Source: Halopiger aswanensis (GTDB taxonomy: Archaea > Halobacteriota > Halobacteria > Halobacteriales > Natrialbaceae). From it: a stretch of DNA of 64,000 nt. The stretch's first letter is position 1, and each line of letters starts with the position of its first letter. Position numbers and translations under genes: made by a program. The notes beneath the pieces were generated by a model, which did not search any database, was not told the origin of the DNA, and was given only the letters and a program-made list of their open reading frames with translations. Below, in pieces: positions 43,627 through 47,836 of the stretch. The stretch covers positions 620,001 to 684,000 of the forward strand of contig NZ_RAPO01000002.1 of assembly GCF_003610195.1 (NCBI RefSeq), given 5' to 3'.

Positions 43627-44280
43627 CTACGAGAAGGGCCCGATCGAGCGATCGTACTCGAGGACGGCGTACCCCTGCGCTTCGTACGCCGCCTGCTGGT
43701 AGCGAACGGCAGCGATCGTCTGGGGTAGCCGATTGAGCGGGAACCGACGATTCGACTCGACCGAGACCGTCACGTGCGTCGCGCCGTCCCGTTCCTCGAG
43801 CGCGACCGAATACGTCCCCCACGGTCGGCCGGCTTCCGCAACTTCGATCTCGAGATCGACGTCCGGATCGTCCGAAACGGTTCGGGTTTCGACCGTCATC
43901 GTAACGGATCGGAGGCCGAACAGATACGATATTTCGTAGTCGGTGCCGTCATCGGTCGAGCGAACGGTGTCGGCGAGTCCCCACTGAAAGGGAAGGATCG
44001 GCGGCGTCTCCCCCTCGAAATCGCGTCGAACCGTCTCGAGATCGGCGTCCGTTTGCAGGTGAAGCGTCCCGGAGGTGGTCGAAAGCGGCAGGAGGAGAGC
44101 GACGAGTGCGCCGAGCGAGAGGCCCAGGGCGACGAGGTACGGGAGCGCGGCGAACGCGGCCAGAACGGCGACGACCGAGACGGCGGCGACGCTCACCTTC
44201 AGTATCCGCTGGGTCCGTTCGTATCGCCGGACGATCGAATCGACGGAAGCCGAATCGCTCGGACTCGTGGCGGAGGGCAT
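43627..44280 (-). CDS. Hypothetical membrane-anchored protein with SRPBCC-like domain
   Basis: This 217-residue protein has two hydrophobic stretches (about residues 27-47 and 49-66). A soluble beta-rich domain follows (LHLQTDADLETVRRDFEGETPPILPFQWG, then YEISYLFGLRSVTMTVETRTV, and VTVSVESNRRFPLNRLPQTIAAVRYQQAAYEAQGYAVLEYD), a pattern suggesting an SRPBCC/polyketide-cyclase-like fold. ATG 44280 was chosen over 44307. It is transcribed on the same strand as and just downstream of the nitric oxide reductase gene, separated by 136 bases. Function unknown. Confidence 0.6.
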   Translation of the reverse strand: MPSATSPSDSASVDSIVRRYERTQRILKVSVAAVSVVAVLAAFAALPYLVALGLSLGALVALLLPLSTTSGTLHLQTDADLETVRRDFEGETPPILPFQWGLADTVRSTDDGTDYEISYLFGLRSVTMTVETRTVSDDPDVDLEIEVAEAGRPWGTYSVALEERDGATHVTVSVESNRRFPLNRLPQTIAAVRYQQAAYEAQGYAVLEYDRSIGPFS

Positions 44281-44416
44281 ACTACCGACGTGATAGAACG
44301 AAATCATAAGCCTGCCGAACCGTCGCAGCACCCGATTGCACGCGTGCCGCCGGTTGGGACCGCCGACGGTCGGACCCCCGACACCAGGGGCCGCCGAGAC
44401 CGGAGGCGGCCGGCTG

Positions 44417-47400
44417 TCACGCAGTCGCGGTGCTCGCGCTCGAGTCGACTTCTCGACGCGCCGCCAGGAGATGCCGTATTGCCCCCGCCGTAAACGCCAG
44501 CGCACCCAGGATCATCGGCGTGTCGCCCAGCGTTCGGGCCCACAGCAGCGTCTGGATGCGGTCCCGCTCGTAGAACTCGAGGCTCCGCGCGGCGGCGTAC
44601 CCCTCCTGGAACGCCGTCCGCAACTGCAGGAAGCCGATCGGCAGCAGGGAGGCGATCGACATGACCGCGAGGCCGACGTTGGTCAGCCAGAACGCGGCGC
44701 GGAACCACGTCGGTTGCCACGCGGCTTCGGGCGTAACCACCCGCAGGATGTAGGTGCCGAGCCCCAGCGCCAGCAGGCCGAAGGCGCCGAACGTCGCCGT
44801 GTGGCCGTGCGCGACGGTCAGGTAGGTCCCGTGCTCGTAGTAGTTGATCACCGGCAGGTTGATGAAGAAGCCGAGCACCCCGCCGCCGACGAAGTTCCAG
44901 ACGCTCGAGCCGACGATAAAGAGCAGCGGCAGCGTGTAGGGGAACTCCTCGCCCTGGGCCCGCAGCGTCCGGTACTCGCCGAAACTGCGGTAGAGGACGA
45001 ACACGAGCGGGACGAACTCGAGCGTCGAGAACGTCGTCCCGATCGGCACCCAGACGTCGGGGAGACCGACCCACCAGTAGTGGTGAGAGACGCCGACGAT
45101 GCCGGCGGCCATGATGGCGAACACCTCGAAGAGGATCGCCTGCTCGGCGTCGGCGCGCTCCAGCAGGTCCATCGAGACCAGCGCGACGGCCACGATGGCA
45201 GTGACGAAGAACTCGAAGACGCCCTCGACCCACATGTGGACGACCCACCAGCGCCAGAACTCCGTCACCGCGATGTTCGTCTCCGGCGTGTAGAGCATGC
45301 TCGCGCCGAAGAGGAGGGCGATCGAGCCGCCGGCGTAGGTCATGAAGTGGCCCAGCCCGGTCGGCGGTTCGTCGAGCCGGCGGACGCTCCGGAGCACGAG
45401 GCCGGTCCAGCCGACCAGCGCGGCGAGCAGGGATACCTTCCAGATGCGGCCGGTCTCTAAGTACTCCAGTCCCTCGGAGCCGAGCAACCACCAGAGTTCG
45501 CCGTCCTCCGGGCTTCCGAACGCTCCTCGCATGCTAAGCCAGACGCAGGCGAAGGCCCCGACCGTGACGACGACGAGCGCGCCCAGCAGGGCGGTCGCCC
45601 CTTCGGCCTGCCGGGGCGGATCCTCGTCGGCGAACAGGCCCGGCAGGAAGAGCCCACCGGCGAGCCACAGCGTCGTGATCCAGAGGATGCCGAGGTTGAT
45701 GTGCCAGGTGCGGCCGACCGAGAACGGCAGCACGGAGACGAGGTCGATTCCCAACTTCTCGCCGATGCCGTAGAACCCGGTCCGCTCGACGTAGTAGTGC
45801 GCGAGGTAGGCGCCGACGAGCACCTGCGCGAGGAACAGCGCACCGGCGACGGGGACGTACCGCGCCGCGGCGTACTGCGCGGGCGTGATCGACACCGAAT
45901 CGGGCGCGGGAACGTCGACGAGTTCGGTCGTCGGCTCGGCGAAGTCGAAGCTGTGGTAGGCCCAGACGCCCGCGCCGCCGCCGGCGACCAGCAGGACCAC
46001 GCTGATCGTGCTCCAGACCAGCACCTGCCCCGTCGGCCGGTTGCCGCTGCCCGGCACCGGCGGCCAGTCGTTCGTGTAGGAGTGGTCCGAGCCGGGTCGG
46101 TCGGTGTGGGCCATCCACGCCGTCCAGCAGGCGAAGTCCGCGATCCGCGCGGCCTGCGAGGCCGACTCGACGAACCCCGCCGGCACGCCGCGCTCGGGCG
46201 ACCCGGCGTGATAGCGGTCGACGTACTCGTTCCGAATCCGGCGGTGCGCGTAAGCCTCCGCCGCCGAGTAGCGCGCGATCGCACCCTCGGGCGCGTCGTT
46301 CTCGAGTTCGCGCTCGACGCGGTCCGCGACGGCAGCCTGCCCGTCCGCCGACAGCTCCTCGAACGAACCGGCCCCTCGCTGGCGCGCGTAGTACTCGCGC
46401 ATGAACTCGGTCTTCAACTCGAGCGCGTCGGCGGTGATGTCGACCCCGAAGTACGAGCCGTTGCCCAGCACGGAGCCGTGGTTCATGAGCCCGTTCGCCT
46501 GGAAGGCTTTCTTTCCCTGCCGGACCTGCTCGGCGGTTACGACGGGCTCCCCGTCTGGCCCCCGAATCTCGTCGGGGATCGGCGGCGCCCGCTGGCGCGA
46601 GAGCCACGCGCCGATCGACATCGCGACGAGGTTGGCGACGAACAGGCCGATCAGCGCCAGCGAGCCCTTCGAGCGCGAGCGAAGCGCCGCAACGCCCGTG
46701 AGATCGAAGCCGTCGTCTCCGTCGCCCTCGAGCAAGAGACTCGAGACGAGTTCGACGAGGGCGCGCTCGATCGGGGTGTCCGAAGCGTCACCGGCACTCG
46801 AAGCCGTCGGACCCAACAGAGAGAGTAACTGGCCGGCGGCCGGATCCAGCCCGCCGTCGTCCGCGAGTAGCGCGAGCATCGTGGCCGCCGCGGTCGCGAC
46901 GGATCGGGGTTGGACGGGCTGGTTCCCTTGAGCGGCGGCATCGGTCCCTCCCTCGAGCGCGGCCCGGTCGGTCTCGGTCGGCGACGCGGGAGACAGTTCG
47001 CGCTCGTTGGGCTCGCTCGAGGACTCGTCCGGCGTTCGCTCGTCTACGAGCCGCGGAATCTCCTCGGTGAGCAGGCGCTCGAGGGCGTGGCCGACGACTA
47101 CAGCGTCGCACTGTCCAATTTCCGCGACGGCTTGCTCGAGCGACTGGTCCGGCTCGAGATCGAGTTCCGTTTGAATCGTTTCGCGCAGCTCCGTGAGGGC
47201 GGCCTCGATCTCGAGCGGGTCCGCAGCCGTGCTGTCATTGGCCGTCGCTGCATCCGGGCTGTCTCCGTCAGTGAGTCGCTCGAGCAACTCGCCTACGTCC
47301 ACATCGCCGTCCAGCCCTACTTCCGTCGCCAGCCGCTCGCGAATCGCGTCCAGCGTCCGCTCGTCCAGTCGCGCTTCGTCGAGGTCGTACCGGCGGACGA

Positions 47401-47680
47401 ACCGCTCGAGGGCGCGATCGATCGGATCGGTCCCGTCGGGGCCGCAGGCCGCCTCCTCGCGGAGGTCCTCGGGCGACCGGCCCGCGGCTCGCTCGCAGAG
47501 TTCGGTTACGGCGCGGTCGACGACCTTATCCCGTGCGCTCTCGAGCCGTTCGCGAGAACGGTCGCAGAGGTCGTCAACGGTTTTCGCCCCGGCCTCGAGG
47601 CGGTCAGTTACGAAATCGGTTCGCCGACGCCACGTCTCTCCGGTGTCATCCCGTGAGAGCAATCGGTCCGTAATGCGCAT
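44417..47680 (-). CDS. norB: Quinol-type nitric oxide reductase with large N-terminal extension
   Basis: This 1087-residue protein is a qNOR-type heme-copper oxidase relative that reduces NO to N2O using quinol electrons. From residue 338 on it is standard NorB: TM1 LALIGLFVANLVAMSIGAW, then RQGKKAFQANGLMNHGSVLGNGSYFGVDITADALELK. The metal-centre ligands are intact: HMWVEGVFEF (FeB His and Glu), SHHYWWVG (FeB His pair), AHGH (heme b3 and heme b His), and an early AHYYVE His. The first 337 residues are an extra soluble acidic, helix-forming region matching no domain I know. The gene lies downstream of the MGMT-like gene. Confidence 0.88.
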   Translation of the reverse strand: MRITDRLLSRDDTGETWRRRTDFVTDRLEAGAKTVDDLCDRSRERLESARDKVVDRAVTELCERAAGRSPEDLREEAACGPDGTDPIDRALERFVRRYDLDEARLDERTLDAIRERLATEVGLDGDVDVGELLERLTDGDSPDAATANDSTAADPLEIEAALTELRETIQTELDLEPDQSLEQAVAEIGQCDAVVVGHALERLLTEEIPRLVDERTPDESSSEPNERELSPASPTETDRAALEGGTDAAAQGNQPVQPRSVATAAATMLALLADDGGLDPAAGQLLSLLGPTASSAGDASDTPIERALVELVSSLLLEGDGDDGFDLTGVAALRSRSKGSLALIGLFVANLVAMSIGAWLSRQRAPPIPDEIRGPDGEPVVTAEQVRQGKKAFQANGLMNHGSVLGNGSYFGVDITADALELKTEFMREYYARQRGAGSFEELSADGQAAVADRVERELENDAPEGAIARYSAAEAYAHRRIRNEYVDRYHAGSPERGVPAGFVESASQAARIADFACWTAWMAHTDRPGSDHSYTNDWPPVPGSGNRPTGQVLVWSTISVVLLVAGGGAGVWAYHSFDFAEPTTELVDVPAPDSVSITPAQYAAARYVPVAGALFLAQVLVGAYLAHYYVERTGFYGIGEKLGIDLVSVLPFSVGRTWHINLGILWITTLWLAGGLFLPGLFADEDPPRQAEGATALLGALVVVTVGAFACVWLSMRGAFGSPEDGELWWLLGSEGLEYLETGRIWKVSLLAALVGWTGLVLRSVRRLDEPPTGLGHFMTYAGGSIALLFGASMLYTPETNIAVTEFWRWWVVHMWVEGVFEFFVTAIVAVALVSMDLLERADAEQAILFEVFAIMAAGIVGVSHHYWWVGLPDVWVPIGTTFSTLEFVPLVFVLYRSFGEYRTLRAQGEEFPYTLPLLFIVGSSVWNFVGGGVLGFFINLPVINYYEHGTYLTVAHGHTATFGAFGLLALGLGTYILRVVTPEAAWQPTWFRAAFWLTNVGLAVMSIASLLPIGFLQLRTAFQEGYAAARSLEFYERDRIQTLLWARTLGDTPMILGALAFTAGAIRHLLAARREVDSSASTATA

Positions 47681-47836
47681 GTTGCGGCCTCGTTCGGCGT
47701 AGCTACTAGGGCCCGAGACCGCACCGTAAGCGTGGACGTGTCAGTCGCCGGCGGTTTATCCCGCCGACTGTGGCGATCGCTAACCCGAAATAAAATGAAG
47801 GGGACAGTCGGTTTCGGAGAACGAGCGGTTGTGCCG

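Follow-up and report, generated by a model that had tools for sequence, protein, structure and literature searches.

The norB gene of this window raises two questions: whether the long open frame that precedes its first membrane segment belongs to the protein, and what such an extension would contribute to a nitric oxide reductase. The window, the whole 64,000-nucleotide stretch of Halopiger aswanensis DNA that was analysed, holds the gene on its minus strand (44417–47680, stop codon included), with an uninterrupted frame of 1,087 codons running from an ATG at 47680 to a stop at 44417. The reading that we favour, with somewhat more confidence than doubt, is that the product is a single-chain qNOR of a distinct haloarchaeal clade that serves mainly in NO removal and carries a cytoplasmic, all-helical N-terminal domain with a contact function.

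The reading frame and the catalytic core

Hydropathy places the beginning of the first membrane helix at about residue 338, so that coordinates 46670–47680 (minus strand) correspond exactly to the extension, residues 1–337. TM1 itself, delimited by hydropathy and conservation, spans residues 338–361 (46598–46669, minus strand), and the fusion point lies directly before it, behind a conserved LRSxSTGS motif. The extension contains no transmembrane segment as judged by hydropathy, and a Pfam search with the whole protein returned no domain before residue 369. With 79 D/E against 36 K/R residues and a predicted helical structure, the segment agrees with its description in the initial annotation as 337 acidic, helix-rich residues in frame before TM1 without a stop. 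The further remark that both parts share one codon style holds for their overall similarity but not for GC3, at 0.78 for the extension as against 0.93 for the NorB part.

Behind TM1, a NorB cytochrome-c-like extracytoplasmic domain (PF22085, E 8e-48; residues 369–541; 46058–46576, minus strand) and a heme-copper oxidase-type catalytic domain (COX1, PF00115, E 1.5e-51; residues 605–1053; 44522–45868, minus strand) are found in one chain, both above the cut-off. The best PDB match of the core is the qNOR 3ayf (E 1.5e-155). The qNOR ligands and glutamates H628, H815, E819, E823, H866, H867, E888, H958 and H960 are all present, align with their counterparts in 3ayf and, within the clade of fused proteins, are either invariant or kept in no fewer than 90% of members, in keeping with the earlier statement that all metal ligands remain. 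Judged by this residue pattern, the core would reduce NO to N2O as other qNORs do.

Like the solved qNORs of Geobacillus stearothermophilus (3ayf), Achromobacter (6qq5, 8bgw) and Neisseria (6fwf), the protein is a single chain with TM1, a cytochrome-c-like domain without heme c and a heme-copper-type core carrying all metal ligands. No CxxCH motif occurs in the translated protein. Unlike the solved enzymes, which begin no more than ~30 residues from the aligned core, the fused proteins carry ~250–370 extra residues before TM1. Whereas a qNOR is usually ~750–800 aa long and starts near TM1, the chain here has 1,087 aa and puts TM1 at residue 338, and for this reason we conclude, on sequence grounds, that it is a clade-specific qNOR variant. 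The same genome encodes a short qNOR (NorZ; G000:C3:401227-403446) whose core is 55% identical and has the same catalytic pattern.

The same fused architecture is seen in Natronococcus occultus SP4 (WP_015323333.1; 1,088 aa), whose copy lies on a plasmid (NC_019976.1; L173:4848-8114) next to ric. RefSeq lists this protein as ‘cbb3-type cytochrome c oxidase subunit I’, apparently in error in view of its NorB domain. Fused proteins are already in the databases, at least one of them misnamed, and the name ‘cbb3 oxidase’ conceals a fused NO reductase. For the protein of the window, a cbb3-type cytochrome c oxidase (CcoN-type subunit) was ruled out by the PF22085 match and by the PDB matches at E ≤ 1e-20, of which all 13 belong to nitric oxide reductases.

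Start, conservation and descent of the fused form

A search with the extension alone, covering 392 haloarchaeal genomes of the order, revealed homologous extensions in frame 5' of norB in 33 genomes. Nearly all of its 34 matches lie within frames of ~1,010–1,120 codons that run into norB; the match in genome G019 was discounted, as it contains in-frame stops and the norB core was not found there. Two remoter members on deeper branches, in G105 and G111, have shorter extensions and were missed by this search. When the core alone was used as query, norB was found in 200 of the 392 genomes, and the hits divide sharply: with 67% identity or more to the core of the window they lie in long frames, whereas those sampled at 62% or below come from proteins whose initiating Met immediately precedes TM1. 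Members of the fused clade share their start codon (MxIxxxL), no Met separates that start from TM1 in several of them, and the RefSeq protein of N. occultus was called from the equivalent position.

Selection was assessed by comparing the genome of the window with that of a congener. The dN/dS of the extension was 0.34 in frame, whereas the two shifted frames gave apparent values of 1.3 and 1.9, which indicates, for this genome pair, purifying selection on the extension in the norB frame. Together with in-frame homologues in 33 genomes, this contrast places the extension beyond chance.

A promoter-like block, TGACACGTCCACGCTTAC, is situated 46–63 nt 5' of the extension's ATG (47726–47743, minus strand). 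In its general form, TGACRCGTSTACNNTTAYC, the block starts 56–68 nt 5' of the ATG in 14 of 31 fused genes, a descriptive count since the motif was defined on the same sequences, and it occurs in 0.3% of 90-nt background windows. It is absent from all of the 300-nt stretches that precede the core in the fused genes. In each of the genomes G000, G303 and G326, the block has a single genome-wide match, which is at the fused norB, and the TGACACGTCCACGCTTAC block is possibly the site of a dedicated regulator. The TTCGAGCC-CTAG motif was present in only 5 of the 31 promoters.

The initial annotation had left open that the start was mis-called, and on that account translation would truly begin directly ahead of TM1, with the open frame 5' of it a by-product of high GC content. 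The fall of GC3 in the extension is compatible with this account, as are the long chance open frames, of 285–307 codons, that precede short norB genes in G074, G354 and G151. These chance frames are mostly Arg-rich and mutually dissimilar, whereas the extension is acidic and aligns across at least 27 species. In view of this conservation, the in-frame selection, a promoter-like block that stands before the extension and not before the core, the lack of an internal Met in several members and the RefSeq start, we rejected the mis-called start as extremely unlikely. By the same sequence criteria, norB with its N-terminal extension is a real fusion that is conserved in its clade, as the alternative offered by the initial annotation had it. 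Chance frames of ~285–307 codons 5' of some short norB genes (L072, L073 and L074) are a trap for fusion calls in high-GC genomes.

In a tree of 81 cores, 31 fused proteins form one side of a fully supported branch (100%), indicating a single origin of the fused form on this tree, and in the other haloarchaeal NorBs the chain opens next to TM1. The clade includes Natrinema, Natronococcus, Haloterrigena, Halopiger and Natronoglomus, and also Halogranum, Halalkalicoccus, Haladaptatus, Halegenticoccus and Halococcaceae MAGs. Fused norB survives as a remnant in G220 and with several frame breaks in G249 (L168:2850-3619; L172:6504-8312), which suggests independent losses; the one frame break each in G332 and G156 may be an assembly error. 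In G211 (L052:5878-8715), roughly the first half of the extension is missing, and this copy may have been shortened or be in decay. No intact member has lost the extension entirely.

Nature of the extension domain

The extension is poorly conserved except in two helical blocks. The most conserved stretch, recovered in two alignments, comprises residues 84–116 (47333–47431, minus strand; pLDDT ~85–90) with the consensus DPxDRALExFLRRYxLDxxRLDDxTLxAIRxR. A second predicted helical block at residues 155–215 (47036–47218, minus strand; pLDDT ~80) aligns across members and contains the motif RDAVxVGHxLERxLxEELP. Tyr98 and Leu105 are invariant in both alignments, and Phe94, Arg97, Arg104, Arg114, Asp192 and Glu201 are kept in at least 90% of the aligned members. 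Structure prediction of residues 1–337 with AlphaFold, using 18 sequences, yielded a model consisting of helices only, whose local confidence is good in three stretches (pLDDT ~70–90 over residues 20–40, 86–120 and 160–210) and low from residue 224 on. The full-length model had a pLDDT of 45, too poor to show contacts or location.

Profiles built from 27 members gave only chance-level matches for the extension in Pfam, NCBIfam and PDB sequences. A Foldseek search with the extension model returned no match below E 1, a weak test of fold given the low confidence of the model. In 61 relatives, the extension profile had no convincing match other than the fused NorB, and among 295 genomes drawn from the phylum the search found only the window's own copy. 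The motif at residues 84–98 is echoed near residues 181–194 in several members, but this internal repeat is weak (best E 0.0035) and not convincing. A weak similarity to the N-terminus of an IS-type transposase (DRALNKFLTEYDWDEDQLNHERLEELQ, L170:736-1953; E 0.008), which falls on the most conserved stretch of the extension, was judged to reflect chance or a shared helical motif, and the transposase was rejected as a relative.

In qNOR topology, the chain that precedes TM1 is cytoplasmic, a placement with which the basic residues directly ahead of TM1 accord under the positive-inside rule. A cytoplasmic extension is consistent with this topology, and the protein would then be a normal qNOR core to which a cytoplasmic domain of helices is attached at TM1. 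The initial annotation saw in such a domain a possible connection between NO reduction and a second pathway.

Fusions to redox domains are common in respiratory enzymes, and on this precedent the extension could, as a redox or sensor domain, supply the enzyme with electrons or sense NO, O2 or a metal. His198, in 19 of 31 fused members, and Cys62, in 12 of 31, would be its candidate ligands. Across these 31 members, no Cys or His is conserved clade-wide in the extension, which makes a heme, Fe-S or copper redox domain unlikely; no family or fold match points to one either, and qNORs draw electrons from quinol without such a domain. We regard a redox or sensor domain as quite improbable, and the redox partner proposed at the outset finds neither conserved ligands nor a cofactor-domain match in the extension.

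The absence of cofactor ligands leaves protein contacts as the most likely mode of action of the extension. Such contacts, made at the cytoplasmic face, could contribute to assembly, oligomerization, positioning, or the binding of a regulator or partner. This function may be a loose one, because the extension changes at roughly three times the pace of the core when measured against silent sites, and its conservation is poor beyond the two helical blocks. Captured upstream sequence that remained as a largely passive tail, mainly aiding solubility or membrane insertion in high salt, is a serious rival for the same low conservation, and one that we consider unlikely. It would account for the fast evolution (dN/dS of 0.3–0.5 in the extension compared with ~0.1 in the core, and 0.92 in one MAG pair), the variable length (250–367 residues), the low GC3, the lack of relatives elsewhere and the truncated copy in G211, and the chance open frames before short norB would supply a precedent for such capture. 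It does not readily explain two helical blocks that retain invariant Tyr98 and Leu105, and nearly invariant Asp192, across several families, or why no intact member has dispensed with the domain. A function in protein contacts is the reading that we carry forward. An engineered C-terminal fusion to a qNOR has been reported to perturb the dimer (PMC13087809); in the fused clade, a large domain joined at TM1 occurs naturally.

Genomic setting and physiological role

Co-occurrence with nitrite reductase separates the two kinds of NorB. NirK scored above the cut-off in all 16 genomes that have both kinds, the window's genome and 15 others, but in only 3 of 16 fused-only genomes; in a fourth, G203, NirK is present as two fragments. 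The split gives a Fisher p of ~3e-6, or 2e-5 counting G203, with relatedness uncorrected. The fused norB does not adjoin nirK, whereas short norB genes do in some genomes (G017, G261 and G270), and short haloarchaeal qNORs, which also differ from the fused ones in starting beside TM1 and falling on the other side of the tree, accompany NirK in most genomes tested. Because the fused NorB does not follow nitrite reductase while the short NorB mostly does, the fused enzyme probably functions more in NO detoxification than in nitrate respiration.

The window's own genome complicates this assignment: it holds NirK, NosZ and a second NorB, so that its fused copy could also serve denitrification, a use that is possible in complete denitrifiers of this kind. 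Extended to the whole clade, the argument would make the fused protein a plain denitrification NOR whose extension links the enzyme to the denitrification chain. The NirK of all genomes with both NorBs accords with this, as does NosZ in 13 of 32 genomes tested, among them some without NirK. The lack of NirK in most fused-only genomes and the separation of the fused gene from nirK speak against it, and we hold such a general role to be improbable.

The extension might also go further than general contacts. It may represent a new cytoplasmic domain family that occurs on no proteins but those of this NOR clade and that specifically senses or recruits a partner, such as a protein for Fe-S repair, an enzyme that reduces quinone or another NOR; a respiratory NO reductase would in this way become a dedicated NO-defence enzyme. 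We offer this extended proposal tentatively, as possible but doubtful. In five Natronococcus-type loci (L048, L046, L091, L102 and L104), ric, a di-iron Fe-S repair gene, immediately precedes the fused norB and shares its strand. We count this arrangement in favour of the detoxification role, although ric is present in only 10 of the 32 genomes tested. Clustering of gene neighbours revealed no conserved partner or operon other than ric in Natronococcus, which we place on the same side.

Reviews of haloarchaeal denitrification treat all NO reductases as a single qNOR/NorZ kind (PMC8400030, PMC8301774), and no description of a haloarchaeal NorB so extended turned up in the open-access literature that was searched. 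Our analysis divides haloarchaeal NORs into two clades, one of which has a large, previously unrecognised and probably cytoplasmic domain and is without a tie to nitrite reductase. With two NorB clades, the use of norB as a marker of denitrification would mislabel genomes that may only detoxify NO.

In the window, the fused norB stands alone, with an uncharacterised ORF on one side and an alkyltransferase-like gene beside trpCBA on the other. An ORF (43627–44307, minus strand; 226 aa) located just downstream of norB contains a hydrophobic stretch and matches no family, and a counterpart occupies the same place in the congener G288.
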